This document shows positions 2,237 to 61,056 of a stretch of 64,000 bases of DNA, one piece after another; within the stretch, counting starts at the first letter, position 1, and each line of letters starts with the position of its first letter. The stretch spans positions 33,156,508 through 33,220,507 of the forward strand of contig NC_088776.1 in NCBI RefSeq assembly GCF_954871325.1, read 5' to 3'. A program made the position numbers and the translations under genes. The notes under the pieces are model-generated. The model was not told the DNA's origin and did no database searches. It saw nothing but the letters and a program-made list of their open reading frames with translations. Source of the DNA: Gordionus sp. m RMFG-2023 (taxonomy: Eukaryota; Nematomorpha; Gordioida; Chordodea; Parachordodidae).

Positions 2237-3958
2237 CAGGCGCGTACGCAGGAATGGGGGGGGGGGGATAATAAAAAATATTATTGTTTTTTAAAAATAT
2301 CAAGCATAAATATATTAGGACTAATAACTATTTCTAATACACAATTTTAAATTTATGTGAATTATAAAAAAATTATATGTTGAACCACTTAAATGACCCA
2401 AAATAGAAATTTGAATTTTTTGAGCCTTCACACAAAAAGTTTCTTAGGAATAATTGCATTTTATATGTTATATATTTACAATGTAAAATCCAATCTTCGT
2501 TGTGATTGAGCTAATTTTTCAATTATCTCAGCCTTGCTTGTCGTCAAATGCCTATGAATATTCAAAAGATCCAAAACTTTCAATCTACTTTCAGATGTTG
2601 TACTTCTTGGTATGTTTTTCAGAGACCTGCAGGCCCGGCCCCCGGGCTGGACAGTATTTTAATTTTTTTAAATATAACCGAGCCGGGCCCGAATTTTTTT
2701 TAAAAAAACACCCAAGCCGGGCCTGAAAATTTTATTTAAAAAAAAGCCGGGCCGGGCCTGAAATTTTTTATGAAAAACACAGGCCTACCCGTAAAAAATC
2801 TTTAAAAAAAATCCGGGCCGTGCCCTGCAAATGGTACTTCTGCAGGCCTCTGTTATTCTTCTTAAAAAAGAGAATGTTCTCTCATTAGTTTACTAATGGG
2901 AAGAGTTTATAAACCCTTTTAATACATTGGGAATTTAATCTAAAATGTGTTTGAAATAATGTAGAGCATCCATAGCATTTTTTGGGACTATATCAACCAT
3001 TGTTAATCTTATAAACATAATTTTTCAGTTAGTAAGGCATCATAAAATATTTTAACATCTTCATAATAAAAATATAACAAATATTTTTTTTTCTATCACC
3101 ATCTGAAAAAGATTGGGAAGGCTTTTGTGGAAGTAATATTTGCAGATGTAAGTGCTGCATGATGAATTAAAAATTCATTTATTTGGGTTATAAATGTATC
3201 TGTATTTAAGATATACTCTTCTACTTACCCTATATAAATGTTTTAACGATGAGCTTGCCTTGCTACAAGTCGAGGGAGCCAAATATTAAACACGTGTAGC
3301 TCTGCTTTTGACTCAACAATAAAATATAAAATATGAAATTCTTCATCAACATTGCCCTAATTTTCTTGAGTTCTGATCTCTCCGCTATTCTCATCTTCTT
3401 AACCAAGTCAATGTCATGTTTTTGAAAAGTAATACTTAAAATAGTTATATAATTAAATAATACATTCTAATGAGAAATAAAATTTGGAATAAGCATTGAA
3501 TCCAATAATTTTCTTGCTTCTGAGGAAATATTTCTTTCAGGCCATTGTGATATTTCAGTAATAGCAAATAATTGGCTCTTCTAACTCCTTAAAAGCTGTT
3601 ACTGCTTGATGGCAGAGACTCTATCTCGTTGGACAAGGTTGCAATTTCTTTTTCCCTGTTGGACAAGAAGTTTCAGAAATAATAATTATTTGACTAGAAA
3701 TTTGAAAATGGTAGATAAATATTACGGCACTAAAAATTTGAATATAATAAGTAAATATTACACCGGAAAACTTGAAATCAATTAATTGATAAAATAACTT
3801 AGTAGATAAATGTGATAATAAACGAAATATTAACAAATATAAATTAATATAAACAATAATATTTTTGAAAAATATATCCGGCATCTGCATTTTTTGGCTT
3901 GGGGGGGGGGGGGGGGGGATTTGTCTTCCTGCCCCCCCCCCCGCTGCGTACTCCAATG
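2237..3958 (-). mobile_element. hAT element, poly-G family, copy 1
   Basis: Left end CAGGCGCGTACGCAGG plus a G run; right end, read inwards, CATTGGAGTACGCAGC plus a G run, so one terminus has diverged. Flanks TGTAAAGC (2229-2236) and TGTAAAGG (3959-3966) are an 8-bp target duplication with one mismatch, as hAT elements make. The interior matches the reverse complement of the copy at 25675-27512, including transposase fragments on the minus strand, and it carries the same nested GC-rich MITE (2620-2852). The transposase is decayed. Confidence 0.8.
2620..2852. mobile_element. GC-rich hAT MITE nested in hAT copy 1
   Basis: Ends CAGAGACCTGCAG and (reverse complement) CAGAGGCCTGCAG bound a stretch alternating GGGCCGGGCC-type blocks with A/T runs. 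Related copies lie at 26726-27052, 34702-34980 and, diverged, 13976-14123. The same MITE sits at the same place in the hAT copy at 25675-27512, so it was inserted before the two hAT copies separated. Confidence 0.75.
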
Positions 3959-9829: not shown

Positions 9830-9905
9830 AACACAGCTAGTGTTGTTAAACGTTGAGCCGTTTTTTAAAAACGGCGAACTCAATATTTTATTAAGAAAAA
9901 ATATT

Positions 9906-9986
9906 GGGTATGACTAAATAATGTCTTGCTTAACTGTCTTGCTAAAAAGCAATTAATCATAATCAATCATAATTTGATGATATAAT
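9906..9986 (+). repeat. left terminal inverted repeat of the Foldback-like element
   Basis: This pairs with 22665-22745 on the opposite strand. It holds a 20-bp subterminal motif at 9911-9930, one mismatch from the exact motif at 22721-22740. A short internal duplication of TGTCTTGCT is unique to this end. Confidence 0.8.
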
Positions 9987-10838
9987 TGTCCTAGTATGTT
10001 ATTTTAAAAACGCATAATGTCAATCATATGGATTGAATACATCTGATTGGGGGAAAAATTATTATTATTTAATGTAAAAAAATAATAATTATTATTCATT
10101 ATTAAAGTTTTGAAATTTAAAAAGAAAAAATATAATTATTATGAATTTATTTTTTTCGATATATATTTTTTTGGAATATGGATTTTGATTGATTCTTTCT
10201 TTTTGATGATGAAAATAAAAGTTTTGAAATTTGAAGAAGAAAAAATTATTAGAAGAAAAAAATCATTTTATAAATTACGATACGTGTATAGTGTTGACCG
10301 TGACTTAGGATTCGATATACCTATTCGTTATTATAAGGTAAAAACCACATTTTTATTTTACATATTATTATTACAAGTTAACTTAAATATAATAAAAATG
10401 GCTTTTACTCTCAATTATATAACTTAACAATCCAACATAATTCTTTCTAATAATATTAAATAAATACCATTGACCATTAACGCCTATCCATATTTAACAT
10501 AACCCATTTATTCAAAATTATATTTATCCATAATAAAACAATATAATCTATTAGGAAAAATATAATATAATCAATCATAATTATCTATTTCTTCATCTCC
10601 CAAAGGTCCATTCTTAGTTCCTCGCTGACATCTTCTCGAATTAATCCAAACTCTTCATTCCAAAATGGCTAACCAAAGAATCCTTACAATCCATCCATCA
10701 TGTGATCATCACCTCCTCTTCTTCCCCCAAGGAAAACTTAATTTTCCTGTCAGAAAATAACTGATATTTGATGTATTATATTAAATTTATTTCTTCTTTT
10801 TTTCAACAGTTACAACAATTATATGTTTCCTTAGGACA
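9987..10838. mobile_element. ~850-bp insertion in the left arm
   Basis: The inverted partner arm lacks this segment. There the sequence passes straight from GATGATATAAT to ATCTTTTAAA. The segment starts TGTCCTAG and ends CTTAGGACA, short inverted ends, with TAAT on both sides as a possible 4-bp target duplication. A 105-codon frame at 10110-10427 is K/F/Y-rich and unrecognised. The family is unknown. Confidence 0.55.
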
Positions 10839-11269
10839 TTAATATCTTTTAAAAAAAAAATTTCAAAAACTTTTTATTTTACATAAATCAATTTTTAATT
10901 AATTAAAAAATTGATATTAAATATCAAATAATTTAAAATTCTATTTTTACTAAATATTATTGGAAAAAAAATATATTTAATAGCTTATTACAACTTAAAT
11001 TTTATTTTAAATTACAAAATTTTACAAATTTATATCCATAAGAGGGCGTTAATTACATAAATATGAAAATATATTCTTAGGAAACCAGAATAAATATTGG
11101 AAAGCGCTTTTTTTTTGTATTTGGGTGTAAATACATGTGAAAAACCGAAAAAAAATTTAAAAAATAGAGGTTTCTTTTAGATTTAATTAATGAGTAGGTT
11201 TAGAATCGAAAAATAGTAGAAAGTTTGTAAGGAACATATTGCTGGCGTTATTGATCAAAATCTCTTTAT
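10839..11269 (+). repeat. unique part of the left inverted arm
   Basis: This AT-rich segment is the reverse complement, with few differences, of about 22240-22680 next to the other end. It links the TIR to the satellite array. Its poly(A) and poly(T) blocks differ in length between arms. Confidence 0.8.
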
Positions 11270-13405
11270 TTTTGGTTTATACGTGTATATTTAGGTGTTA
11301 AACATTATCCTAAAAAATATTTTGAAAATATTATGATTTGACCGAATGCCGAGCTGACCACTTACTAAATATTCGATCTACCAAATTTGGTAGTAATAAT
11401 ATTTGTAAAATGCTCATTTTTGGTTTAGATATCTATATATACGTGTAAATCATTGTCCCAAAAAATATTTTAAAAATATGGTGATTTGACAGAAACCCGA
11501 TTTGAAACCGGCCCAATAACTAAATACTGTCTTACTGGCGTTATACATGGAAAATTCTTTATTTTTGGGTTATATGTGAACAAAAACGTGGTAAGCATTT
11601 TCCTAATTAATTTTTTGAAAATATTATGATTTAACCGAATGGCGAGCTCAAAACCGACCACTTACTAAATATTCGATCTACCAAATTTGGTAGTAATATT
11701 ATTTGGAAAATGTTCATTTTTGGTTTAGGTATCTATATATACGTGTAAATCATTATCGCAAAAAATATTTTAAAAATATCATGATTTGACAGAAAACCGA
11801 TTTGAAACCGGCCCATTGACTAAATACTGTCTTGCTGGCGTTATACATGGAAAATTCTTTATTTTTGGTTTATACGTGAACAATAACGTGTAAAGCCTTA
11901 TCTTAATTAATTTTTTGAAAATATTATGATTTGACCAAATGGCGAGCTCAAAACCGACCATTTACTAAATATTCGATCTACATAATTGGGAGTAATATTA
12001 TTTGTAAAATGTTCATTTTTGGTTTAGATATCTATATATACGTGTAAATCATTATCCCAAAAAATATTTTAAAAATATCCTGATTTGACAGAAAACCGAT
12101 TTGAAACCAGCCCAATGACTAAATACTGTCTTGCTGGCGTTATACATGGAAAATTCTTTATTTTTGGTTTATACGTGAACTATAACGTGTAAAGCCTTAT
12201 CCTAATTAATTTTTTGAAAATATTATGCTTTGACCAAACGAGCTCAAAACCGACCACTTACTAAATATTCGATCTACCAAATTTGGTAGTAATATTATTT
12301 GGAAAATGTTCATTTTTGGTTAATTTATCTATAAATACGTGCAAATCATTATCCCAAAATATATTTTAAAAATATCGTGATTAGATCAATAACCGATTTG
12401 AAACCGAAATACTGCCTTGCTGGCTTTATACATAGAAAATTCTTCAATTTTGGTTTATACGTGAACAATAACGTGTTAAGCATTATCCTAATTAATATTT
12501 TGAAAATATTATGATTTGACCGAATGGTGAGCTCAAAACCGACCACTCACTAAATATTCGATCTACCAAATTTGGTAGTAATATTATTTGGAAAATGTTC
12601 ATTTTTGGTTAATTTATCTATAAATACGTGCAAATCATTATCCCAAAATATATTTTAAAAATATCGTGATTAGATCAATAACCGATTTGAAACCGAAATA
12701 CTGCCTTGCTGGCGTTATACATGGAAAATTCTTTATTTTTGGTTTATACGTGAACTATAACGTGTAAAGCCTTATCCTAATTAATTTTTTGAAAATATTA
12801 TGCTTTGACCAAACGAGCTCAAAACCGACCACTTACTAAATATTCGATCTACCAAATTTGGTAGTAATATTATTTGGAAAATGTTCATTTTTGGTTAATT
12901 TATCTATAAATACGTGCAAATCATTATCCCAAAATATATTTTAAAAATATCGTGATTAGATCAATAACCGATTTGAAACCGAAATACTGCCTTGCTGGCT
13001 TTATACATAGAAAATTCTTCAATTTTGGTTTATACGTGAACAATAACGTGTTAAGCATTATCCTAATTAATATTTTGAAAATATTATGATTTGACCGAAT
13101 GGTGAGCTCAAAACCGACCACTCACTAAATATTCGATCTACCAAATTTGGTAGTAATATTATTTGGAAAATGTTCATTTTTGGCTTAGATATCTATATAT
13201 ACGTGTAAATCATTATCCCAAAAAATATTTTAAAAATATCGTGATTTGACAGAAAACCGATTTGAAACCGGCCCAATGACTAAATACTGTCTTGCTGGCG
13301 TTATATATGGAAAATTCTTTATTTTTGGTTTATATGTGAACAATAACGTGGTAAGCATTATCCTAAATTATTTTTTGAAAATATTAAGATAAGACCGAAT
13401 ACCGA
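11270..13405 (-). repeat. left satellite array, about 7 monomers of ~287 bp
   Basis: Tandem monomers lie in the opposite orientation to the right array. Many contain the perfect palindrome CTACCAAATTTGGTAG. Three carry an exact copy of the element's terminal motif TGACTAAATACTGTCTTGCT (11817-11836, 12116-12135, 13277-13296). A two-monomer block of 575 bp is duplicated almost identically (about 12230-12800 and 12805-13375), a sign of recent unequal exchange. The ~65-codon frames in monomers are not genes. Confidence 0.9.
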
Positions 13406-13703
13406 GCTCAGATAATCTTAATTATAATTAATTTTTAATCTCCAAAAAAAATAATTTCTATAAAAAATCATCCCTCCCTTCACTTCCATCGAAAATTCTC
13501 GGGTTCCTGTTATTTTTTTATTTCATATAAATTAAAAATTTATACAAAATTATAATTTTTTAAAAAAATAATTTGGCATATTCCTAAAAAAATAAAAATT
13601 AATGTGCATAAAAAAATAATAAACAAATAAATAAATAATTTTAAATATTTTCTGTTAAAATTTATTATTATTATATAATTATAAATATTCTTTTTGTGAT
13701 AAA

Positions 13704-13945
13704 ATGCCTGATTTCCTACCCTATATGAATCGGTAAGTTTTATAAAATTATAAATATTAAATTTTTTTTATATTAGATTAATAGAGAAGCCATCTCCTGA
13801 GGTGGCTCTCGAAATTCTTAAAGAGATAAAAAGTGAAGATATTGTGCCTATGATGTATCATTCTTCAAATGGACTAGTCGGGAATGTTGATGTAATTACT
13901 AGGCATATATTAGAGAGAATTCAACCAACAATATTATTGAAGTAA
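13704..13945 (+). CDS. unidentified two-exon frame in the loop
   Basis: ATG at 13704 opens MPDFLPYMNR. A GTAAGT donor at 13733 and a TTAG acceptor ending at 13776 bound a 44-bp intron. The second exon reads on to TAA at 13943-13945, giving 65 codons with balanced composition, including EVALEILKEIKSEDIVPMMY and NGLVGNVDVITRHILERI. A second possible donor (GTAAAT at 13942) would extend the gene further. The intron size matches MRPL1 introns in this window, so it looks like real spliced coding sequence. I do not recognise the family. It may be a captured host gene fragment or part of the element's own gene. Confidence 0.4.
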
Positions 13946-13975
13946 ATATAAATATATATATATTACAAAAACAAT

Positions 13976-14123
13976 CAGACTTTTAACCTTGGCCCCGGGT
14001 ATATGTAGCAGGTTATATTTTAATTTTTTAAAATATAAAAAAGACAATGGCCGTACCAAAAAATTTTACCCGGGTTGGTATTTTTTTTAAAAATTTGGCC
14101 AGGCCGTTTAAAAGGAAAATCTG
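13976..14123. mobile_element. diverged GC-rich hAT MITE in the loop
   Basis: Ends CAGACTTTTAACC and (reverse complement) CAGATTTTCC enclose CCCGGG and GGCCAGGCC blocks like those at 2620-2852 and 34702-34980. No clear target duplication remains. Confidence 0.5.
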
Positions 14124-14249
14124 CTTTTATATGAATATTGATTAGATAATATGAACTATATTAAACTTTTATTTGAATCATTTTTAATTGTTTAAAAAAT
14201 AATGAATATTTTTTTAAAAACAAACTATATTATTAAGATTTTCACCAAG

Positions 14250-14515
14250 GAAAACGATTGGTGATGGATGAAGAAACGCACCACATTTATTTACGTATTA
14301 TAGCCGCAATCGAGGTCATACTCAATAGAGACTTTTATGATTTACAAAATGTTAATTATATTGTACCAGTTTCCATGAGAGAACGTATTTTATTTTATTC
14401 TTATAATCATACTTTAAATAACATACTTAAAATAAGGGATTGGTCGGGCATGATTATTATTTTTGTTTTAAGTGGTATACGCCTATTAAATCTTTTTGTC
14501 CCCCTTTATCATTAA
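14250..14515 (+). CDS. unidentified reading frame in the loop
   Basis: An open frame of about 88 codons reads through LVMDEETHHIYLRIIAAIEV and NVNYIVPVSMRERILFYSYN. An AG acceptor-like site precedes it at 14248-14249. Composition is protein-like rather than random AT translation, but I recognise no domain. It ends in a stop, and sense appears to continue in another frame for about 30 codons. It may be an exon of the same gene as 13704-13945, although the phase of the obvious splice sites does not join. Confidence 0.3.
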
Positions 14516-14584
14516 ATTTATTAAGTACCCCTGATATATATGGTCGGGATATTAGCAGATGTTCTGATATAAAAATAACATAAC

Positions 14585-15100
14585 GTGGATTCTTGTAGTA
14601 TACCCGATGATATTTTAAGTATTTCTATAAATCATTTTATTCATTTACAAAAGCTTAATTTCAACCCACATGATAAAATAGTTAATATTGATAGTTCATT
14701 TGAAACTATATCTATTAATGAATCCCATGATTTTATAATTATTACGGATAATGTTAAAAAATCGAATTTAAATTATATAAACTCTTCCCCTATTAATGAT
14801 ATCAGCGGTAATTATGATAATAAATCTTTTAATGAATCGCATGAATTTACTCCTATAAAATCAAATTTAAATAATATAAAATTTTCCCCAATTAATGATA
14901 ATTATGATATAAAACCTATTAACGAATCGCCTAAATTTATACCTATAAAATTAAATTTATATAATATAAAATTTTCTCCAATTAATGATAATTATGTTAA
15001 TAAATCTATTAAAGAATCGCATGAATTTACACCTATAAAATCAAATTCGTTTATGAGCTCGCCATTCGGTCAAATCTTAATATTTTCAAAATTTTTTTAG
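14585..15100 (+). CDS. low-complexity repeat-protein frame in the loop
   Basis: The frame encodes about 170 residues rich in N, I, S and K, with at least three imperfect repeats of roughly 33-36 residues built on NIKFSPINDNY, NESHEFTPIKSN. The underlying DNA repeats in tandem at about 14786-15045. The last ~17 codons run into the first satellite monomer, so the true end is probably lost or differs. No known domain. Confidence 0.3.
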   Translation: MDSCSIPDDILSISINHFIHLQKLNFNPHDKIVNIDSSFETISINESHDFIIITDNVKKSNLNYINSSPINDISGNYDNKSFNESHEFTPIKSNLNNIKFSPINDNYDIKPINESPKFIPIKLNLYNIKFSPINDNYVNKSIKESHEFTPIKSNSFMSSPFGQILIFSKFF

Positions 15101-18100
15101 GATAATGCTTAAGACCTTATTGTTCACTATTAAACCAAAAATTAAGAATTTTCCATGGAGAGCGCCAGCAACGCAGTATTTCGGTTTCAAATCGGTTATC
15201 GGTCAAATCACGATATTTTTTAAATATTTTTTGGGATAATGATTTGCACGTATTTATAGATAAATTAACCAAAAATGAACATTTTCCAAATAATATTACT
15301 ACCAAATTTTAGATCGAATATTTAGTAAGTGGTCGGTTTTGAGCTCGCCATTCGGTCAAATCTTAATATTTTCAAAATATTAATTAGGATAATGCTTACC
15401 ACGTTATTGTTCACGTATAAACCAAAAATGAAGAATTTTCTATGTATAACGCCAACAACACAGTATTTCGGTTTCAAATCGGTTATCGGTCAAATCACGA
15501 TATTTATAAAATATTTAATGGGATAATGATTTGCACGTATTTATAGATAAATTAACCAAAAATGAACATTTTCCAAATAATATTACTACCAAATTTTAGA
15601 TCGAATATTTAGTAAGTGGTCGGTTTTGAGCTCGTCATTCGGTCAAATCTTAATATTTTCAAAAAATTAATTAGGATAATGCTTACCTCGTTATTGTTCA
15701 CGTATAAACCAAAAATGAAGAATTTTCTATGTATAACGCCAGCAAGGCAGTATTTCGGTTTCAAATCGGTTATCGGTCAAATCACGATATTTATAAAATA
15801 TTTAATGGGATAATGATTTGCACGTATTTATAGATAAATTAACCAAAAATGAACATTTTCCAAATAATATTACTACCAAATTTTAGATCGAATATTTAGT
15901 AAGTGGTCGGTTTTGAGCTCGCCATTCGGTCAAATCTTAATATTTTTAAAAAATTAATTAGGATAATGCTTACCACGTTATTGTTCACGTATAAACCAAA
16001 AATGAAGAATTTTCTATGTATAACGCCAGCAAGGCAGTATTTCGGTTTCAAATCGGTTATCGGTCAAATCACGATATTTATAAAATATTTAATGGGATAA
16101 TGATTTGCACGTATTTATAGATAAATTAACCAAAAATGAACATTTTCCAAATAATATTACTACCAAATTTTAGATCGAATATTTAGTAAGTGGTCGGTTT
16201 TGAGCTCGCCATTCGGTCAATTCTTAATATTTTTAAAAAATTAATTAGGATAATGCTTAACACGTTATTGTTCACGTATAAAGCAAAAATGAAGAATTTT
16301 CTATGTATAACGCTAGCAAGGCAGTATTTCGGTTTCAAATCGGTTATCGGTCAAATCACGATATTTATAAAATATTTTTTGGGATAATGATTTGCACGTA
16401 TTTATAGATAAATTAACCAAAAATGCACATTTTCCAAATAATATTACTACCAAATTTTAGATCGAATATTTAGTAAGTGGTCGGTTTTGAGCTCGCCATT
16501 CGGTCAAATCTTAATATTTTAAAAAAATTAATTAGGATAATGCTTAACACGTTATTAAAATGAAGAATTTTCTATGTATAACGCCAGCAAGGCAGTATTT
16601 CGGTTTCAAATCGGTTATCGGTCAAATCACGTATTTATAAAATATTTAATGGGATAATGATTTGCACGTATTTATAGATAAATTAACCAAAAATGAACAT
16701 TTTCCAAATAATATTACTACCAAATTTTATATCGAATATTTAGTAAGTGGTCGGTTTTGAGCTCGCCATTCGGTCAAATCTTAATATTTTTAAAAAATTA
16801 ATTAGGATAATGCTTAACACGTTATTAAAATGAAGAATTTTCTATGTATAACGCCAGCAAGGCAGTATTTCGGTTTCAAATCGGTTATCGGTCAAATCAC
16901 GTATTTATAAAATATTTAATGGGATAATGATTTGCACGTATTTATAGATAAATTAACCAAAAATGAACATTTTCCAAATAATATTACTACCAAATTTTAG
17001 ATCGAATATTTAGTAAGTGGTCGGTTTTGAGCTCGCCATTCGGTCAAATCTTAATATTTTTAAAAAAATAATTAGGATAATGCTTAACACGTTATTGTTC
17101 ACGTATAAACCAAAAATGAAGAATTTTCTATGTATAACGCCAGCAAGGCAGTATTTCGGTTTCAAATCGGTTATCGGTCAAATCACGATATTTATAAAAT
17201 ATTTTTGGGAATAATGATTTGCACGTATTTATAGATAAATTAACCAAAAATGAACATTTTCCAAATAATATTACTACCAAATTTGGTAGATAGAATATTT
17301 AGTAAGTGATCGGTTTTGAGCTCGCCATGGTCAAATCTTAATATTTTCAAAAAATTAATTAGGATAATGCTTAACACGTTATTGTTCACGTATAAACCAA
17401 AAATGAAGAATTTTCTATGTATAACGCCAGCAAGGCAGTATTTCGGTTTCAAATCGGTTATCGGTCAAATCACGATATTTATAAAATATTTTTTGGGATA
17501 ATGATTTGCACGTATTTATAGATAAATTAACCAAAAATGAACATTTTCCAAATAATATTACTACCAAATTTTAGATCGAATATTTAGTAAGTGGTCGGTT
17601 TTGAGCTCGCCATTCGGTCAAATCTTAATATTTTTAAAAAATTAATTAGGATAATGCTTAACACGTTATTAAAATGAAGAATTTTCTATGTATAACGCCA
17701 GCAAGGCAGTATTTCGGTTTCAAATCGGTTATCGGTCAAATCACGTATTTATAAAATATTTAATGGGATAATGATTTGCACGTATTTATAGATAAATTAA
17801 CCAAAAATGAACATTTTCCAAATAATATTACTACCAAATTTTAGATCGAATATTTAGTAAGTGGTCGGTTTTGAGCTCGCCATTCGGTCAAATCTTAATA
17901 TTTTTAAAAAAATAATTAGGATAATGCTTAACACGTTATTGTTCACGTATAAACCAAAAATGAAGAATTTTCTATGTATAACGCCAGCAAGGCAGTATTT
18001 CGGTTTCAAATCGGTTATCGGTCAAATCACGATATTTATAAAATATTTTTGGGAATAATGATTTGCACGTATTTATAGATAAATTAACCAAAAATGAACA

Positions 18101-21100
18101 TTTTCCAAATAATATTACTACCAAATTTGGTAGATCGAATATTTAGTAAGTGATCGGTTTTGAGCTCGCCATGGTCAAATCTTAATATTTTCAAAAAATT
18201 AATTAGGATAATGCTTAACACGTTATTGTTCACGTATAAACCAAAAATGAAGAATTTTCTATGTATAACGCCAGCAAGGCAGTATTTCGGTTTCAAATCG
18301 GTTATCGGTCAAATCACGATATTTATAAAATATTTTTTGGGATAATGATTTGCACGTATTTATAGATAAATTAACCAAAAATGAACATTTTCCAAATAAT
18401 ATTACTACCAAATTTTAGATCGAATATTTAGTAAGTGGTCGGTTTTGAGCTCGCCATTCGGTCAATTCTTAATATTTTTAAAAAATTAATTAGGATAATG
18501 CTTAACACGTTATTGTTCACGTATAAACCAAAAATGAAGAATTTTCTATGTATAACGCCAGCAAGGCTGTATTTCGGTTTCAAATCGGTTATCGGTCAAA
18601 TCACGATATTTATAAAATATTTTATGGGATAATGATTTGCACGTATTTATAGATAAATTAACCAAAAATGAACATTTTCCAAATAATATTACTACCAAAT
18701 TTGGTAGATCGAATATTTAGTAAGTGATCGGTTTTGAGCTCGCCATGGTCAAACCTTAATATTTTCAAAAAATTAATTAGGATAATGATTGACACGTTAT
18801 TGTTCACGTATAAACCAAAAATGAAGAATTTTCTATGTATAACGCCAGCAAGGCAGTATTTCGGTTTCAAATCTGTTATCGGTCAAATCACGATATTTAT
18901 AAAATATTTTATGGGATAATGATTTGCACGTATTTATAGATAAATTAACCAAAAATGAACATTTTCCAAATAATAACTACCAAATTTTAGATCGAATATT
19001 TAGTAAGTGGTCGGTTTTGAGCTCGCCATTCGGTCAATTCTTAATATTTTTAAAAAATTAATTAGGATAATGCTTAACACGTTATTGTTCACGTATAAAC
19101 CAAAAATGAAGAATTTTCTATGTATAACGCCAGCAAGGCAGTATTTCGGTTTCAAATCGGTTATCGGTCAAATCACGATATTTATAAAATATTTTATGGG
19201 ATAATGATTTGCACGTATTTATAGATAAATTAACCAAAAATGAACATTTTCCAAATAATATTACTACCAAATTTTAGATCGAATATTTAGTAAGTGGTCG
19301 GTTTTGAGCTCGCCATTCGGTCAATTCTTAATATTTTTAAAAAATTAATTAGGATAATGCTTAACACGTTATTGTTCACGTATAAACCAAAAATGAAGAA
19401 TTTTCTATGTATAACGCCAGCAAGGCAGTATTTCGGTTTCAAATCGGTTATCGCTCAAATCACGATATTTATAAAATATTTTTTGGGATAATGTTTGCAC
19501 GTATTTATAGATAAATTAACCAAAAATGAACATTTTCTAAATATGGTAGATCGAATATTTAGTAGGTGATCGGTTTTGAGCTCGCCATAGTCAAATCTTA
19601 ATATTTTCAAAAAATTAATTAGGATAATTCTTGACACGTTATTGTTCACGTATAAACCAAAAATGAAGAATTTTCTATGTATAACGCCAGCAAGGCAGTA
19701 TTTCGGTTTCAAATCGGTTATCGGTCAAATCACGATATTTATAAAATATTTTATGGGATAATGATTTGCACGTATTTATAGATAAATTAACCAAAAATGA
19801 ACATTTTCCAAATAATATTACTACCAAATTTTAGATCGAATATTTAGTAAGTGGTCGGTTTTGAGCTCGCCATTCGGTCAATTCTTAATATTTTTAAAAA
19901 ATTAATTAGGATAATGCTTAACACGTTATTGTTCACGTATAAACCAAAAATGAAGAATTTTCTATGTATAACGCCAGCAAGGCTGTATTTCGGTTTCAAA
20001 TCGGTTATCGGTCAAATCACGATATTTATAAAATATTTTATGGGATAATGATTTGCACGTATTTATAGATAAATTAACCAAAAATGAACATTTTCCAAAT
20101 AATATTACTACCAAATTTGGTAGATCGAATATTTAGTAAGTGATCGGTTTTGAGCTCGCCATGGTCAAACCTTAATATTTTCAAAAAATTAATTAGGATA
20201 ATGCTTGACACGTTATTGTTCACGTATAAACCAAAAATGAAGAATTTTCTATGTATAACGCCAGCAAGGCAGTATTTCGATTTCAAATCGGTTATCGGTC
20301 AAATCACGATATTTATAAAATATTTTATGGGATAATGATTTGCACGTATTTATAGATAAATTAACCAAAAATGAACATTTTCCAAATAATAACTACCAAA
20401 TTTTAGATCGAATATTTAGTAAGTGGTCGGTTTTGAGCTCGCCATTCGGTCAATTCTTAATATTTTTAAAAAATTAATTAGGATAATGCTTAACACGTTA
20501 TTGTTCACGTATAAACCAAAAATGAAGAATTTTCTATGTATAACGCCAGCAAGGCAGTATTTCGGTTTCAAATCGGTTATCGGTCAAATCACGATATTTA
20601 TAAAATATTTTATGGGATAATGATTTGCACGTATTTATAGATAAATTAACCAAAAATGAACATTTTCCAAATAATATTACTACCAAATTTTAGATCGAAT
20701 ATTTAGTAAGTGGTCGGTTTTGAGCTCGCCATTCGGTCAATTCTTAATATTTTTAAAAAATTAATTAGGATAATGCTTAACACGTTATTGTTCACGTATA
20801 AACCAAAAATGAAGAATTTTCTATGTATAACGCCAGCAAGGCTGTATTTCGGTTTCAAATCGGTTATCGGTCAAATCACGATATTTATAAAATATTTTAT
20901 GGGATAATGATTTGCACGTATTTATAGATAAATTAACTAAAATGAACATTTTCCAAATAATATTACTACCAAATTTTAGATCGAATATTTAGTAAGTGGT
21001 CGGTTTTGAGCTCGCCATTCGGTCAAATCTTAATATTTTCAAAAAATTAATTTGGATAATGCTTACCACGTTATTGTTCACATAAAAACCAAAAATAAAA

Positions 21101-22230
21101 AATTTTCCATGTATAACGGCAACAACGCTGTATTTCGGTTTCAAATCGGTTATCGGTCAAATCACGATATTTATAAAATATTTTATGGGATAATGATTTG
21201 CACGTATTTATAGATAAATTAACCAAAAATGAACATTTTCCAAATAATATTACTGCCAAATTTTAGATCGAATATTTAGTAAGTGGTCGGTTTTGAGCTC
21301 GCCATTCGGTCAAATCATAATATTTTCAAAAGATTAATTAGGATAATGCTTACCATGTTATTGTTCACGTATAAACCAAAAATGAAGAATTTTCTATGTA
21401 TAACGCCAACAACGCAGTATTTCGGTTTCAAATCGGTTATCGGTCAAATCACGATATTTATAAAATATTTTATGGGATAATGATTTGCACGTATTTATAG
21501 ATATAACAACCAAAAATGAACATTTTCCAAATAATATTACTACCAAATTTTAGATCGAATATTTAGTAAGTGGTCGGTTTTGAGCTCGCCATTCGGTCAA
21601 TTCTTAATATTTTTAAAAAATTAATTAGGATAATGCTTAACACGTTATTGTTCACGTATAAACCAAAAATGAAGAATTTTCTATGTATAACGCCAACACG
21701 CAGTATTTCGGTTTCAAATCGGTTATCGGTCAAATCACGATATTTATAAAATATTTTATGGGATAATGATTTGCACGTATTTATAGATAAATTAACCAAA
21801 AATGAACATTTTCCAAATAATATTACTACCAAATAATATTACTACCAAATTTTAGATCGAATATTTAGTAAGTGGTCGGTTTTGAGCTCGCCATTCGATT
21901 AAATCATAATATTTTCAAAAAATTAATTAGGAAAATGCTTACCACGTTATTGTTCACATATAAACCAAAAATAAAGAATTTTCCATGTATAACGCCTTTA
22001 AGACAGTATTTAGTCATTGGGCCGATTTCAAATCGGTTTTCTGTCAAATCACGATATTTTTAAAATATTTTTTGGGATAATGATTTACACGTATATATAG
22101 ATATCTAAACCAAAAATGAACATTTTCCAAATAATATTACTACCAAATTTGCTAGATCGAATATTTAGTAAGTGCTCGGTTTTAAGCTCGGCATTCTGTC
22201 AAATCATAATATTTTCAAAATATTTTTTAG
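15051..22230 (+). repeat. right satellite array, about 25 monomers of ~287 bp
   Basis: Monomers start at intervals of 287 bp (for example near 15329, 15616, 15903, 16190). Each is a diverged dimer: a ~150-bp half starting GGATAATGATTTGCACG and a ~137-bp half starting GGATAATGCTTA, both with an ACCAAAAATGAA block and a CGGTCAAATC block. Some monomers lack about 18 bp after CACGTTATT (near 16553, 16823, 17667). Higher-order units of 844 bp (three monomers, about 16740 to 18430) and 1,416 bp (five monomers, about 18435 to 21260) are visible. This is the inverted counterpart of the left array. Confidence 0.92.
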
Positions 22231-22239
22231 GATAATGTT

Positions 22240-22680
22240 TAACAAGAAAAATGAAGAGATTTTGATCAATAACGCCAGCAATATGTTCCTTACAAACTTT
22301 CTACTATTTTTCGATTCTAAACCTACTCATTAATTAAATCTCAAAGAAACCTCTATTTTTTTTAAAAAAAATCTGTTTTTCACATGTATTTACACCCAAA
22401 TACAAAAAAAGCGCTATCCAATATTTATTCTGGTTTCCTAAGAATATATTTTCATATTTATGTATTTAACGCTCTCTTAAGGATATAAATTTGTTAAATT
22501 TTGTAATTGAAAAATAAAATTTAAGTTGTAATAAGCTAGTAAATATATTTTTTTTCCAATAATATTAAGTAAAAATAGAATTTTAAATTATTTGATATTT
22601 AATATCAATTTTTTAATTAATTAAAAATTGATTTATGTAAAATAAAAAAAATGTTTTAAAATTTTTTTTTAAAAGATATT
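22240..22680 (-). repeat. unique part of the right inverted arm
   Basis: Reverse-complement match to about 10839-11269. The arms differ at several single positions and in homopolymer length, so they are not being kept identical along their whole length. Confidence 0.8.
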
Positions 22681-22745
22681 ATATCATCAAATTATGATTG
22701 ATTATTATTAATTGCTTTTTAGCAAGACAGTATTTAGTCATACCG
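22665..22745 (-). repeat. right terminal inverted repeat of the Foldback-like element
   Basis: Reverse complement of 9906-9986. It contains the exact 20-bp motif TGACTAAATACTGTCTTGCT (minus strand, 22721-22740) placed 5 bp from the element end, as at the left end. Confidence 0.8.
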
Positions 22746-22905
22746 AAAAATATTAAGCCGGTCTTAAGATTTTGCTCATGGCACAAATGGTTTGAACATC
22801 TATTAACGACTTCTCGAGGCTTGTACAATGTTTTTCTGGCTAAATATTGAGTTAGCCGTTTTTAAATTTGGCTCAAATCGAGCATTTTAACAGACTAAAC
22901 AAAGC

Positions 22906-25674: not shown

Positions 25675-27512
25675 CAGGCGCGTACGCAGCGGGGGGGGGG
25701 GCAGGGAGACCCCCCAAAGCCAAAAAATGCAGATGCCGGATTATATTTTTCAAAAATATTATTGTTAATATTAATTTATATTTGTTAATATTTATTCTTA
25801 TCTCATATATACATATATATATATATTTTTTTAATTACATTTATTTATCACATTCATCTACTAAGTTATTTTATCAATCAATTTCGATTTCAAGTTTTCC
25901 TTGGCGTAATTTACCTATTATTTTCAAATTTTAGTGGCGTAATATTTATCTAAATTTCTAATAAAATAATAATTATCTCTGAAACTCCTTGTCCAACAGG
26001 GAGAAAAAAATTGCAAACTTGTCCAACGAGATCGAGTCTCCGCCACAGTAACAGCTATTTTAGAGTTAGAAGAGCTGATTATTAATGCTATTACTGAAAT
26101 ATCACAATGGCTTGAAAGAAATATTTCCTCAGAAGCAAGAAAATTATTGGATTCAATACTTATTCCAAATTTTTTTTCTCATTAGAATGTATTATTTAAT
26201 TATACAACTATTTTATGTAATACTTTTCAAAAACATAACATTGACTTGATTAAGAAGATAAGAATAGCGGAGAGCATTTTATTAGAACTCAAGGAAATAG
26301 AGCTAGTGTTGTTGAAGAATTTCATATTTTATATGTTATTGTTGAGTCAAAAGCAGAGCTATATTTGTCCCCCTCGACTTGCAGCAAGCAAGCTCATCAT
26401 CAAAACATTAATATAGGATCAGTACAAGAGTATTATAAAACAAATGTCCCCTCTCCCAACCTTTTTCATATAGTGATAGAAAAAAAATATAAATATTTGT
26501 TATATTTTTATCAAGAAGATGTTAAAATATCTTATGATGCCTTATTAGCTGAATAACTATGATTAAAAGATTAACTATGGTTGATACAGTCCCAAAAAAT
26601 GCTATGGATGCTTTTTATTTCAAACACATTTTAGATTATACTCCCAATTATTAAAATGGTTATATATATATTAGCAGCTCTTTAGTAAACTAATGAGAGA
26701 ACATTCACTTTTTTAAGAAGAATAACAGAGCCTTGCAGAGGTACCATTTGCAGGACCAGGCCCAGATTTTTTTTAAAAATTTTTTCCGGCCCGGTTTTTT
26801 TTAAAAAAATTTTCAGGCCCGGCCCGGCTAGCCCAGCCCGAATTTTTTAAAATAAATTATATTTATTTTTGATATTTATAGCTAATAATGGCGATTTCAA
26901 ATATTTGGTTTTAAAATATACAACTCGGCTCGGATATTTTTTCTCAAAAAATTTTCAGGCCCAGCCCGGGTGTTTTTTAAAAAAAAATTACGAGCCCGGC
27001 CCGGGTATATTTAAAAAAATTAAAATTCGGGGGCCGGGCCTGCAAGTCTGTGAAAAACATACCTATGAAATACAACATCTGAAAGTAGATTGAATGATTT
27101 GGATCTTTTGAATATTCATAGACATTAAACGCCAAGCAAGGATTGATAATTGAAAAATTAGCTCAAAACATACAAAATACAATTATTCCTAAGAAACTTT
27201 TTGTGTATTAATTTATATTTACAACATTTAAATTTTTTATACTTTATATATTTTAAAAGCTCAAAAAATTCAAATTTCAATTTTGGGTCATTTAAGTGAT
27301 TCATATCGTGGGTTATATTCACTTTATATTTTATGATTCACATTTAAATGCCGGTTTATATATATAATTTTTTTAATTCACATTAGTTTAAAATTGTGTA
27401 TTAGAAAAGTTATTAATCCTAATAAATTTATGCTTAGTATTTTTAATTAAAAATATTATTTCTTAAAAAATTTATTATCCCTCCCCAGACCAAATTCCTG
27501 CGTACGCGCCTG
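25675..27512 (+). mobile_element. hAT element, poly-G family, copy 2
   Basis: Termini CAGGCGCGTACGCAGC and (reverse complement) CAGGCGCGTACGCAGG are flanked by a perfect 8-bp duplication CCACAAGT (25667-25674 and 27513-27520). A G run lies just inside the left end. Plus-strand fragments of a ZMYM1-like hAT transposase occur at about 26060-26740, for example AITEISQWLERNISSEARKL and SVQEYYKTNVPSPNLF, in different frames with stops, so the gene is dead. It is inserted in the LTR element and carries the GC-rich MITE at 26726-27052. Confidence 0.88.
26726..27052. mobile_element. GC-rich hAT MITE nested in hAT copy 2
   Basis: Ends CAGAGCCTTGCAGAGG and (reverse complement) CACAGACTTGCAGG. Same insertion point as the MITE in copy 1. 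Copy 3 (61080-62345) lacks it: there AAGAATAA runs straight into AAACATACC. Confidence 0.75.
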
Positions 27513-44640: not shown

Positions 44641-45020
44641 TTAGAATAATTTTTTTCCTATATACAATATAAATAAAATAATACAAATATAATATATGAT
44701 AAAATATTTTTAACAATTGATTTTAAAAATTTTGACCAGAAAAACAAGAGCGTTGCTCAACCCATCTTTAGCCGTGCTAACCACATTCAACTGGCGCAGA
44801 GAATGTTAATGAATAAAAATTTTAATTGAGGGAATTAATTAAAAATTAAAAAATATCCATACAGCTTAATAGATTATCTTCAAAAGAATCTTAATTCAGA
44901 TCCTTATCAAAAATTTTTTATCTTTATCAGAAATAATCTATGTGGGTTGTTTTTTTAAAGAAATCAAAGTCTGATTTTTATTCTTTAAGATATTTTCTCA
45001 AACTGGAAGTAAGTTCAAAC

Positions 45021-45241
45021 TAGTGTTGTTAAACGGCTCGTTTTGAGCCGATTTTTAAAAACGGCTAACTCAATATTTCATCCAGAATAGTATTACGCAA
45101 GCCGGAATATTTTGTTTGCAGAAGGAACAAAGGTTTGGACATCTATTAGTGATCTCAAGGCTTAGGCAATATTTTTCTGGCTAAAATATTGAGTTAGCCG
45201 TTTTTAAAAATCGGCTCAAAACGAGCCGTTTAACAACACTA
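45021..45241. mobile_element. hAT MITE family A, intact copy
   Basis: 221 bp with inverted ends TAGTGTTGTTAAACGGCTCG of about 60 bp, nearly perfect. It is flanked by an exact 8-bp duplication GTTCAAAC (45013-45020 and 45242-45249). This is the best copy of the family. Others are at 9838-22897 (split), 53465-53905, 54843-55052, 60848-61056 and 61629-61850. It lies 15 bp beyond the proposed donor site of the exon at 45257-45424. Confidence 0.92.
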
Positions 45242-45256
45242 GTTCAAACTTTCTAC

Positions 45257-45424
45257 CTTCGATGACCTTTAATTTTATCCGGGGCCAATAATATTTAAAT
45301 AGCGGATTAATTATTGCTGATTGTATATATTCATCTTCATTGATGTGTTTCGAATCTATTGAAATAAATATAATCAAAATATAAATTGTAAACACTATTC
45401 CAGCTGTATACCTTTTATCTATTT
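45257..45424 (-). CDS. proposed transmembrane exon of the Ig receptor gene
   Basis: After a good acceptor (TGCAAG, with a second AG 6 bp further) the frame reads KRYTAGIVFTIYILIIFISI, a clear membrane-spanning segment, then a charged stretch ending near FKYYWPRIKLK before a GTAGAA donor. Its entry phase fits the end of the C2-like Ig exon (54022-54435) and its exit phase fits the exon at 43231-43586. That places the membrane span just after the second Ig domain, as expected for a type I receptor. No homology proof is available, so the link rests on phase, strand, order and the hydrophobic segment. Confidence 0.5.
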
Positions 45425-45896: not shown

Positions 45897-48591
45897 TGTT
45901 GTAGCTGTTGAAAAAAAGAAGAAATAAATGTAATTTAATACATCAAATGTCAGTGATTTTCTGACAGGGGAATGGGAGTTTTCCTGGTGGAGGGAGAAAA
46001 ATGTGAAGATCACATGGGTTATTGTTAAAGAAAAGTCTTTTGTTAAAGATTTGGAGTGAAGATATTGGATTAATTGGAGAAGATGTCAGCTGTGAGGAAC
46101 AAAGAATGGACCTTTGGGAATGAAGAATATATGAAGCTGGATAATTATTATTTATAATCTTTATATTTTTTTTAATGGATAGATAAATATAATTATGAAT
46201 AAATATGGATCTTTTTATTGTTGCCGTCGACAGGATCCACTTAGGGATTAATGCGGAACACAATGCAATGTAAAGGATAAGAAAGTGATGCATGTACAGA
46301 ACCTGGAGATTCAAGAGTTATTTGTTATAAAAGGTAAGAACCATTTTTTTTTTCATGTAATTTTGAACTTTACTGTGAAACCACAACACAAGTAATAGAA
46401 ACTATACAGGGGTAAGTGAGATTAAGGGATGAGTTTAAGGGTTTCTATACTTATATATTTAGCTTACAAAGGTAAAGATGGAAAGTATGTAATGGGTATT
46501 AGGCAGGAATATGAAAATAAGATCAGGAATTTAAGACAGTAATATTTGGTATATTATATGTCTAGATGTATATTGTACATCCAATTTTGATTATTATTTG
46601 ATACGCCTTAAGACTCATTGTGAATGGAGGTATTCCGTCATAGAGAGCTAAGACCTCAAGATCAGCAGGACAGAAAGGATTGCTAAATTTTTAAATATTT
46701 GAAATTTAGGAAAATATATATGGAAATAGACTTTTGTAATAAAGTGTGTATTATATAATTATGCAATTTAGGTTTTTAAAGGGATGGACATGTGTGGGAT
46801 CATTTATTATTAATTAATGTTAATATATTATATTTGTAATTTAGTTTCAATTAAGGTTGATATGTTATTAAGGGATCTATTGAGGGTGAGTTAATGTTGT
46901 TTATTTTGAAGTAATTAACCATTTTTATGAAATTGGGTGTAATGTGAATTACACATATGATATATTTAATTATGAATGATAATTTAAAGGAATTGAAGTA
47001 TGATGAAGTCAGAATAATATCTATAATGTTATAGGTGGATAGTTATTTTGATTTAGTGCCTGCATTTGATATATATATAAATTGGGTATGGATTTATATG
47101 ATATATTAGATGATGTGTAAGATTTTTTTTTCCAAATTATGAAATCTTTATATTTAATATATATATATATATATTTTTAAATTATAAAATTTTATAAAAG
47201 GTTTTATTTGCAATTATTATATTATTTTTATGGTATGCAATGATGTGAAGGGAAAATATTTTTACAGATAAGGTCAGTCATGTTGATGGGTATGCCTTGA
47301 GGTAAGAATATTGTTTAGTTTGCATACTGGAGAAAGTTTTTTTTTGTGTATAAATTTTTTTTGTAAATTTATGCGGCATATTACATTTTTTTTATCTTTG
47401 TAATAATTTTATAGCACATCACATTTTACTATTTATTTTATGAACATTTTTTTTAAAGAAAAGACTCAATTTATTTTATATTGTGATTAAAAATTCTTTA
47501 CATATATACCATATAGCCCATTATATTTTCAATTTTTGATACTTTGCATTCTACATTTTTGTGAATTTGTGCTCATTGTGATGGCGGAGTTAGGTAGGAA
47601 TGGTATATTTTTCTTAGGATACTAATTCTTAGATGGAAAATATTGTATTTTCTACACATTATATATTTTTCCTCCTTATAAAATATTAAATTTATTTCTC
47701 ATATGTCTTGTAATTTTATTTAAAATCTTTGTTCGGCAAATTTTCATTATTTTTAATACCTAAAAATGGATTTTTATATCTATTTTAGGAGATATTTATA
47801 AAAATGTAGTTTTGATTTTGTTTACATGACAGAAGGACAATTACATGTGTTGAAATTGCATTTCACACATAGACCATGTGTTCACATTACAGTTATATGT
47901 AAGATCATTATTTCCTAATTACCATTAATCATACCCTAATGATGTATATTATGGATCCTATTTCTCAAATGTCTTAAAATGAATGAATTATTATGTTTTG
48001 ATATTACATTGTCCATATTAATGTTCCATAGAATATAAATGCAGATACCCCAATGTACATGTCATTATTGATAATATGTGTTTTCGCGATTATATATTGA
48101 AATATATCGGAGATATTATATTATAAATCATCATAAGGGGAGACGATTCGATAAATTCCCTGAACGTCTTCAAGGCGTCCCGATACAATTCAAAGAAGCG
48201 ATTCGATACAATTCAAAGGGCGATTCGATACAACACCACCACAGAGAGAGGGACGCTGGGCTTGTGAAGGGTGGGCGTGTTGTAGCTGTTGAAAAAAAGA
48301 AGAAATAAATGTAATTTAATACATCAAATGTCAGTGATTTTCTGACAGGGGAATGGGAGTTTTCCTGGTGGAGGGAGAAAAACGTAAAGATCACATGGGT
48401 TATTGTTAAAGATTTGTTGGAGATTTGGAGTGAAGATATTGAATTAATTGGAGAAGATGTCAGCTGGGAGGAACAGAGAATGGACCTTTGGGAATGAAGA
48501 ATATATGAAGCTGGATAATTATTATTTATAATCTTTATATTTTTTTTAATGGATAGATAAATATAATTATTAATAAATATGAATCTTTTTA
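45897..48591 (+). mobile_element. short LTR retrotransposon, complete ends, no coding region seen
   Basis: LTRs at 45897-46217 and 48278-48591 are almost identical apart from one short insertion-deletion. Both start TGTTGTAGCTGTTG and end ATCTTTTTA. A 5-bp target duplication GTATA flanks the element (45892-45896 and 48592-48596). The internal 2.06 kb holds no recognisable gag or pol, so it looks like a non-autonomous LTR element (TRIM/LARD type). A GGGTGGGCG purine tract precedes the 3' LTR. LTR identity implies a young insertion. It lies in the proposed intron 3 of the Ig gene. Confidence 0.88.
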
Positions 48592-54435: not shown

Positions 54436-54842
54436 CTTTAAATAAAATATAAAATTATTTCACAAAAATAACTTAAATTTTAGTCTTTATTATTTAATTT
54501 TTGCGCAATTCGATAATTATCAAATGTGACATGAGATTACTATTCTTATCTTGCATCCTAAAATACTTGAATATATTTTTTGTCGAATTTATAAATTGCT
54601 ACCAGGCTTAGAAAACAAGGATTTAAGATTTTTAAATAATATATAGGAATTACTATTCAGTAGCATCTAGGATTTATCCAAAGTGGGTATGAATTTAAGA
54701 AAGGGACTTCACCCCCACCCCCCATTTGACCGATCTTTGGCACTCCTATAGAAAATTATAATATTATCAATTTTTTCATGATTATTTTATTTTGCTTTAA
54801 TATATAATAACATCTCTGTTAAAGTTGGCGAACTATTGGAAT

Positions 54843-55052
54843 TAATATTGTTAAACGACTCGATTTGAGATTTTTAAAAACGGCCAACTCAATATTTTAG
54901 CCAGAAATATACCGCCTAAACCTCGAGATTTTGCTAATGAATGTCCAAACCTTTGTACCACCCATGCTCAAAATCATTAGGTTTGCGTAATATTTTGTTG
55001 GATAAAAGTTTGAATCAGCCATTTTTAAAAATCGAGCCGTTTAACAACACTA
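54843..55052. mobile_element. hAT MITE family A copy in Ig gene intron 2
   Basis: Ends TAATATTGTTAAACG and (reverse complement) TAGTGTTGTTAAACGGC. Flanks ATTGGAAT and ATTAGAAG are a decayed 8-bp duplication (six of eight match). Confidence 0.75.
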
Positions 55053-60077: not shown

Positions 60078-60847
60078 TCAAAATAACTTGCAATTACATA
60101 ATATGCATTTAAAATAAGTGCATTTATTTTACATGATCTATAAATTTTAAAAGAAAATTACTATAATAAATGGAAATTCGAAATGTATTATATCTTTTGC
60201 TCTAATAAAACACATTCCAATTAAATAAAAATTTCTCCTTATATCAATCAAGATCTCCGCTAGATGCTGTTACTGGCGCTTATTATTTGTGCTTATTCAA
60301 ACACATTATCCTAAATTAAAAAAATTTCTAGATAATTTGTATGAGAAACTTAGATCATATTCGTAACCTGTATTCTATAACTTTTATTAACCTAAATATT
60401 TTATCCTTAAGAAAGATAGGAAGAGTAAAATGAAGTTAAAATATTATATTTGAATAATATTTAATATATTTTATTCTCTCATTATATGAGAGACCCTTAA
60501 AGGTCCCATGATCAACCATTTCTACATCCTCTTTTTCAATGACGATATTAGGATATTCAAACCAAATTAATAATAAAAAAAAGGAAATTCAAATAGTAAA
60601 TAAAATACTTATCAAAAAAAGGAAATCATAATCCCCTCTTGCTCCAAAAAGTTCAGATGCTAGTTAAGTATTTTTCATATATTCCAATTTATATTTATTT
60701 TTCACATTCACAGCAGAATTAAATACGCTATACTAATTTAAATTCTACCAATCCACCAAACTATTTGAACCTTTTTCAATGCAAAAATAAAGTAAAATAT
60801 AAAAATATGACATCGATTTGTTTTAGACTATGAGAATAGCTAAAATC
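60078..60847. other. upstream region of the Ig receptor gene
   Basis: The 5' flank of the gene, AT-rich, with no repeat border or further exon that I can support. A promoter must lie here or beyond, but no clear core motif stands out from the general AT content. Confidence 0.35.
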
Positions 60848-61056
60848 TTGTGTTGTTAAATTTCCGATTTGGACCGATTTTTAAAAATGGCACTCATTAT
60901 TTTAGCCAAAAATTACCTTAAGCCTTGGATTTTGCAAATAGATGTCCAAACCTTTGTGCCATCAAGTAAATTCGGGCGTGCAAAATATTATTTTGGATAA
61001 AATATTGAGATAGCCGTTTCAAAAAATCGGTTCAATAGCCGTTTAACATTCCCACT
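60848..61056. mobile_element. hAT MITE family A, diverged copy
   Basis: Left end TTGTGTTGTTAAA, inner CCGATTTTTAAAAATGG and GATGTCCAAACCTTTG match the family; right end GCCGTTTAAC...CACT. Flanks are too decayed to show the duplication. Confidence 0.65.

Follow-up and report, generated by a model that had tools for sequence, protein, structure and literature searches.

The 64,000-nucleotide stretch of Gordionus sp. m RMFG-2023 DNA analysed here (the window; C2:33156508-33220507, GC content 26.3%) carries a single inserted unit of 12.8 kb at positions 9906-22745. This unit is probably a non-autonomous copy of a cut-and-paste transposon of the Mutator superfamily (MULE) with Foldback architecture, in which the inverted arms are serial sites, most likely recognised by the transposase, and the arrays are sometimes left behind as satellite. 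Family members are usually arranged as terminus, subterminal block of about 400 bp, array of units of about 287 bp, core, inverted array, inverted subterminal block and terminus. Better preserved cores contain a gene region for an OTU-protease domain and for a MULE DDE transposase, and this enzyme may act on the ends and insert the whole unit with a 9-10-bp duplication. The array units contain a version of the terminal motif, ACTAAATACTG-NN-TTGCT, that could serve as the recognition site, so that each arm would present many sites in series. Arm length may change by unequal exchange or slippage within an arm, and arrays that lose their ends may persist as ordinary satellite, as proposed for Tetris (PMC4079207).

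Tandem Repeats Finder places the left array of the window copy at 11239-13410 (289 bp x 7.4, 90% match) and the right array at 15049-22244 (287 bp x 25.2, 94% match), separated by 1,638 bp. The two arms are mutually reverse-complementary (10840-13410 against 22681-20151, 90%), the outer ends form a 98% inverted match (9933-9986 against 22731-22678), and the 9-bp duplication AAAAATATT occurs at 9897-9905 and 22746-22754. These values confirm the structure described in the original prediction, which was made from the letters of the window and named inverted ends, a perfect 9-bp duplication, two inverted arrays of about 287-bp units (about 7 and 25 copies) and a 1.6-kb loop. The features of the element and its site are as follows.

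9837-9905, plus strand: left part of the host (target) miniature inverted-repeat transposable element (MITE), placed by the joined-flank alignment
9897-9905, no strand: left copy of the target-site duplication, AAAAATATT, from the sequence and a family control
9906-9986, plus strand: left terminal inverted repeat, starting GGGTATGACTAAATA, with an extra partial copy of the CTGTCTTGCT motif
9987-10839, plus strand: nested later insertion in the left arm, outside the family structure, with relatives of 74-86% identity at seven other places
10840-11239, plus strand: left subterminal block of about 400 bp, 93% identical to the right-arm copy
11239-13410, plus strand: left satellite array, 7.4 units of about 289 bp
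13411-15048, plus strand: core (loop), relic of an OTU/MULE gene region with an internal deletion
14258-15100, plus strand: two open reading frame (ORF) remnants (85 and 171 amino acids), colinear with the OTU region of better preserved copies, the second extending into the array
15049-22281, minus strand: right satellite array, 25 units of about 287 bp in opposite orientation (Tandem Repeats Finder end 22244)
22281-22681, minus strand: right subterminal block
22665-22745, minus strand: right terminal inverted repeat, reading inward CGGTATGACTAAATACTGTCTTGCT
22746-22754, no strand: right copy of the target-site duplication
22755-22892, plus strand: right part of the host MITE, placed by the joined-flank alignment

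When the flanks are joined in silico, they align unbroken over the junction (at 205 in an aligned stretch of 137-343 of the joined sequence) with 78% identity to window 45020-45235. Weaker alignments that cross the junction occur at 54849-55052, 61635-61828 and 60854-61048 (72-74%) and in L025 (70%; L numbers denote loci and C numbers contigs). These matches are to MITE copies (four from the window, one from L025), which identifies the empty site as a MITE, and removing the element restores its host, as the original prediction states. The duplications and this empty site establish that the element inserted as a unit.

The family extends across the genome, which was searched over 287.06 Mb in 267 contigs. 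A 38-base terminus pattern with three mismatches allowed has 64 matches (reversed control, 0), and a terminus sequence search gives 33 among the best 40 of 610 candidates scored, so that copy numbers are lower bounds. There are thus at least 97 end sites (33 + 64), and 14 pairs of them are in facing orientation no more than 25 kb apart. Seventeen elements, these 14 pairs and three more, were read end to end; L027, with one end only, and the later-read L053/54 and L055/56 stand outside this set. Opposed arrays flanked on either side by a terminus and a subterminal block are present in 15 of the 17, some interrupted by insertions, and at least part of the subterminal block occurs in each other annotated element. 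The same 15 have the long inverted tandem-repeat arms around a core that characterise Foldback elements, with L013 among them coreless, and array length ranges from 1.1 to 25.1 units across the 17. A perfect 9-bp duplication bounds 12 of the 17 elements, compared with 1 of 272 mispaired flanks of the same elements when the best offset is taken in each case, so the duplications are not due to chance. Their length agrees with the 8-10 bp, mostly 9 bp, that is typical of the Mutator superfamily. The search for further copies with paired ends and 9-bp duplications that accompanied the original prediction has therefore found them. The longest arm described here belongs to a member of about 37 kb (C1:21809389 to about 21846315), of which the two end regions were read (L053, L054). 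Its left arm has 48 plus-strand exact motif copies over 28 kb, an estimated 100 or so units, and is followed by a core and a 1.5-kb right arm; this member is truncated at its right tip and has AATCTTC on either side. One flank of L014 resembled the 3' part of a tRNA, and this candidate was dropped when ARAGORN found no tRNA there.

The dispersed loci bear on two explanations that do not involve the proposed transposon structure. Arms that are inverted copies of each other could also come from palindromic amplification, in which a satellite block is duplicated in inverted orientation and no transposon is involved. This is extremely improbable and already contradicted by dispersed copies with common termini and 9-10-bp duplications, and the insertion into a MITE and the transposase in the cores of other members also speak against it. 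It is likewise very unlikely that the inverted arrays are an assembly artefact of collapsed or falsely joined satellite. The arm lengths of 7 versus 25 units are checkable only with reads, and monomer matches also pile up on the small contigs C71-C73; however, 14 further loci, spread over several chromosomes and with different flanks, have the same architecture, most of them with site-specific duplications, and the host MITE is restored.

The window copy is a decayed non-autonomous derivative, and better preserved coding cores exist in other copies. Full-length copies of its 1,638-bp core occur 24 more times, with 86-91% identity (among the best 40 of 150 candidates scored). The ORF remnants in this core have no significant Pfam match and the window copy encodes no transposase; with remnants only, it is non-autonomous. 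An identical core/array junction is found in five elements (the window, L011, L014, L023+24 and L027) and is absent from L028 and L025+26, which places the window copy in a lineage of deletion derivatives. A scan of the window core for promoters and terminators gives no more than are found in shuffled sequences.

In the better preserved cores, OTU domains (PF02338; E = 2.1e-6 in L028, 1.3e-6 in L055) and MULE domains (PF10551; E = 2.8e-8 in L025+26, 1.6e-7 in L055) are detected above the Pfam cut-offs. The MULE transposase domain lies between the ends of family members in L025+26 and L055, which supports the relation to Mutator that was originally proposed. L055/56 (C5:14311317-14324762) contains an OTU part of 242 amino acids and a MULE part of 781 amino acids, consecutive in the same frame with one intervening stop. 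This region is located between opposed arrays with both ends present (interval 14319101-14322799 unread), and the flanking duplication falls within an A-run and is weak evidence. No FLYWCH domain matches the 781-amino-acid L055 ORF (Pfam, E up to 1), and SWIM is likewise not found by Pfam. A 240-amino-acid transposase piece matches 26 database proteins at 27-41% identity, several of them annotated as MULE. Positions D36, D108 and E228, which we take to be the DDE residues of the transposase, are invariant when this piece is aligned with ten of the database proteins (11 sequences). Other MULEs are abundant in the genome (at least 150 matches, with 150 of 651 candidates scored), so the link between transposase and family rests on location. 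By comparison of the location lists by eye, the best 24 genomic matches to the piece (71-100% identity) comprise 11 that have a core copy no more than 10 kb away, 4 others with a terminus no more than 7 kb away, and 9 near neither.

Several other sequences occur in or near the cores. A tandem repeat of about 90 bp lies in the open frame between the OTU and MULE parts (L028, L055, window 14809-15047), and its copy number appears to vary. The 2.4-kb cores of L009 and L012 were considered as alternative coding cores and rejected: they share a reverse-transcriptase sequence (L009:2689-5075 against L012:3074-5427, 97.6% alike; RVT_1 E = 3.3e-33 for the L009 ORF) that is taken to be a retrotransposon insertion outside the family. 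These two elements, with the insert in core position, stand together on the tree of subterminal blocks described below, and the shared insert and adjacent placement suggest that one insert-carrying element may have transposed onward. A hAT fragment in L025+26 was also set aside as a family part and treated as nested.

The repeat unit of about 287 bp is a dimer whose halves have diverged; in one window unit they align over 141 columns at 74% identity (score 50.4; shuffled mean -0.5, s.d. 4.1). This unit and positions 6-25 of the right terminus share the exact 20-bp sequence TGACTAAATACTGTCTTGCT; in a control, no match of 18 was reached by 5,000 random sequences (maximum 14). Among 197 monomers covered at least 93% by one reference unit, 190 contain the motif once, with at most two changes on either side of its dinucleotide and up to four in total, and 7 are without it. 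The exact 20-mer is present in 41 of the 197 and exact AAATACTG-NN-TTGCT in 156. Genome-wide, a 24-base monomer pattern with a free dinucleotide has 1,449 forward and 1,162 reverse matches (reversed control, 0). The 100 places listed, all on C1, form 14 clusters, of which 7 contain both strands, the plus copies lying to the left of the minus copies in foldback fashion (one includes a neighbouring minus copy), and 7 contain one strand.

The variable dinucleotide of ACTAAATACTG-NN-TTGCT differs by subfamily, and ends and monomers tend to agree. This agreement was scored in 31 of 38 elements, 7 being dropped with no monomer motif in the piece read; 20 extra pieces were chosen from the terminus-pattern matches for AA, CA or CG ends and not at random. 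AA-ended elements have AA monomers in 8 of 8 cases (22 of 22 monomers) and CA-ended elements have CA monomers in 8 of 8 (17 of 18 monomers), while the single CG-ended element has CG in its one monomer. TC predominates in 10 of 12 TC-ended elements (one a tie), in 83 of their 155 monomers, with CC in 51, and both CC-ended elements mismatch. The one monomer match in L047 is altered in its 3' context. None of 20,000 shuffles of the end labels reaches the observed agreement (0.78 versus 0.24), although the elements are related by descent with few changes, so the shuffle overstates their independence. A tree of the subterminal block for 34 of 40 elements (the six without a long subterminal match left out) resolves an AA clade, a CA grade, CC and CG intermediates and then mostly TC elements.

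This agreement suggests that the motif in the array units is most likely a recognition site of the transposase. We infer that the enzyme would bind both ends and arrays, in a manner resembling the secondary sites of Galileo (PMC3688188). A wider proposal, which we put forward tentatively as plausible but not favoured, is that the monomer is a working part of the transposon: units would be recognition sites, arrays would serve as multi-site platforms in coevolution with the enzyme and the ends, and arrays outside elements would be released platforms that can still bind transposase and so couple the evolution of satellite and transposon.

Monomer similarity provides a view of how the arms change. 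Averaged over all elements, monomers are 94.9% identical within the same arm, 93.1% between opposite arms and 90.3% between different elements. Arm-to-arm gene conversion was considered from the difference between the last two values and rejected, since the gap mostly vanishes in TC-type elements (opposite arms 92.9%, other elements 92.4%; opposite arms higher in 6 of 10 elements) and mainly reflects subfamily divergence. The higher identity within arms thus supports homogenisation within an arm, whereas exchange between arms has hardly any support, and unequal exchange or slippage is probably what varies arm length, judging from this within-arm similarity.

A number of observations weigh against transposase-recognised arms in a Foldback MULE. 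L010 and L015 have an array in a single arm, and L013 lacks a core between its arrays. No duplication is found at L014, L021 and L023+24, which may be recombinants and are candidates for ectopic recombination or inversion breakpoints, and the duplications of L011 (8/9) and L013 (7/9) are imperfect. No copy read has a fully open OTU and MULE frame; in the best, one stop separates the two. The window copy is a partial exception to the agreement of ends and monomers, with CC in 22 of its 30 monomer motifs and TC at both ends; mismatches also occur in L011, L019 and L021, and L015 gives a tie. The TC-type comparison gives little sign of arm-to-arm conversion. Finally, there are only 5 changes of the end variant and 7 of the monomer variant on the subterminal tree, and the motif is no better conserved among monomers than the remainder of the unit.

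The last two points also speak for an alternative in which the same Foldback MULE carries monomers with no binding role, its arms having arisen by duplication of the end region and its motifs being kept alike by descent or gene conversion. This explanation is possible, if on balance doubtful. The homogenisation of monomers within arms fits it, and Tetris also has a short homology between outer terminal inverted repeat and repeat unit (37 bp, about 80%; PMC4079207). However, terminus and monomer share only about 20 bp, with different flanks (AAAAAG at the ends, GGCG in the monomers), so conversion tracts would need to be confined to the motif, and there is little conversion even between opposite arms of one element. 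Monomers lag behind the ends at the CC-ended intermediates L019 and L021, which fits selection following the ends at least as well as conversion.

Arrays without detectable element ends are also present. At C5:19116096-19141579, about 25.5 kb of monomers lie in one orientation (edges read, interior from matches), and no terminus, subterminal block or core is found in the 4.1 kb to the left or the 5.4 kb to the right. The second case is the small contig C72 (24,246 bp), which is filled by array, with monomers at both ends and matches between. All 30 monomers read from these two arrays are the TC variant, and they are closest to TC-type elements (92.3%, versus 89.1% for L019-L021 and 82.6% for AA types). 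This suggests, without proving, that the end-less arrays were released from TC-type elements. These two arrays may have become satellite by losing their ends. Their existence fits the original idea that the transposon may seed a satellite, though its direction is not proven. The opposite order, in which ancestral satellite was captured by a MULE to become its arms, is unlikely. Such arrays do exist, and their monomers are homogeneous (95.2% identity within and 95.0% between sites), but the monomers contain the element's own terminal motif, mostly in the variant of their own subfamily. The divergent AA and CA subfamilies also have arrays, whereas the end-less monomers are uniformly TC and nearest to TC-type elements.

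Foldback (FB) elements of Drosophila have tandem-repeat inverted arms and 9-bp duplications like those described here, with far shorter units (compared by description). The length of the units had been taken to set this family apart from Foldback; the units are indeed long, but there is a precedent in Tetris of D. virilis, with terminal repeats of about 220 bp and satellite arrays of kilobase size (PMC4079207). Tetris, known from D. virilis and D. americana, is a Foldback transposon with three structurally complete copies reported and no transposase found (PMC4079207). It resembles the Gordionus family in its outer flanking domain, inverted arms of tandem repeats of variable copy number, middle domain and 8-10-bp duplications, in the occurrence of its repeats as long satellite arrays and in the short homology between outer end and repeat unit (PMC4079207). 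The Gordionus family differs, when compared by description, in having more duplication-bounded copies and OTU and MULE cores, in carrying a 20-bp motif of the ends within its unit, and in the agreement of ends with monomers across subfamilies. Given so close a precedent, it is not a new kind of element.

Foldback elements are grouped with Mutator (PMC4079207, PMC3169594), and the Mutator/Foldback element Tm1 of root-knot nematodes has a Mutator-type transposase closest to aphid and mosquito proteins (PMC3169594). Tm1 shares composite inverted arms, variable tandem repeats, 9-bp duplications and this type of transposase with the present family; it differs in its 13-15 bp repeat unit and asymmetric 7-bp terminal motifs, and the consulted portion of its description mentions neither OTU nor satellite arrays (PMC3169594). 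Phantom MULEs likewise have 8-10-bp duplications, include arthropod hosts and are listed with a 'mini-satellite after the transposase ORF (aphids)', whereas their terminal inverted repeats are 18-613 bp (PMC6446971). A FLYWCH zinc finger beside the transposase is a Phantom trait (PMC3169594); the listing gives FLYWCH or SWIM and also allows none (PMC6446971), and neither was found in the Gordionus family. Galileo has Foldback-like arms in which some tandem repeats hold extra transposase binding sites, which serves as the working model for the Gordionus family; its P-element/THAP transposase belongs to another superfamily and the site is missing from two of four Galileo-G repeats (PMC3688188).

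A Foldback element with repeats of about 220 bp that seeds satellite is already known (Tetris), as are Foldback arms with a Phantom-like transposase (Tm1). What is new is that both are joined in one genome, together with a linked end and monomer motif; a literature search found no title describing this Gordionus family, which is not proof of absence. These elements touch on the origin of satellites and on the reason for repetitive Foldback arms. A single genome contains copies bounded by duplications, subfamilies whose end and monomer variants mostly match, members that have transposase domains, and end-less arrays, so both the binding-site idea and the path from transposon to satellite are directly testable there.

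Other repeats in the window accompany the element. The nested insertion at 9987-10839 has the ends TGTCCTAG...TTAGGACA and no counterpart in the right arm, and in the other annotated elements no insertion of this type separates the terminus from the subterminal block. Part of it (10506-10817) also occurs at 45897-46204 and 48278-48578. Copies of the host-type MITE lie at 45011-45257, 54836-55052, 60847-61048 and 61629-61843, the first of which matches its own reverse complement. Finally, 2272-3907 and 25710-27465 are oppositely oriented repeat copies of unassigned kind, with several blocks about 85% alike.

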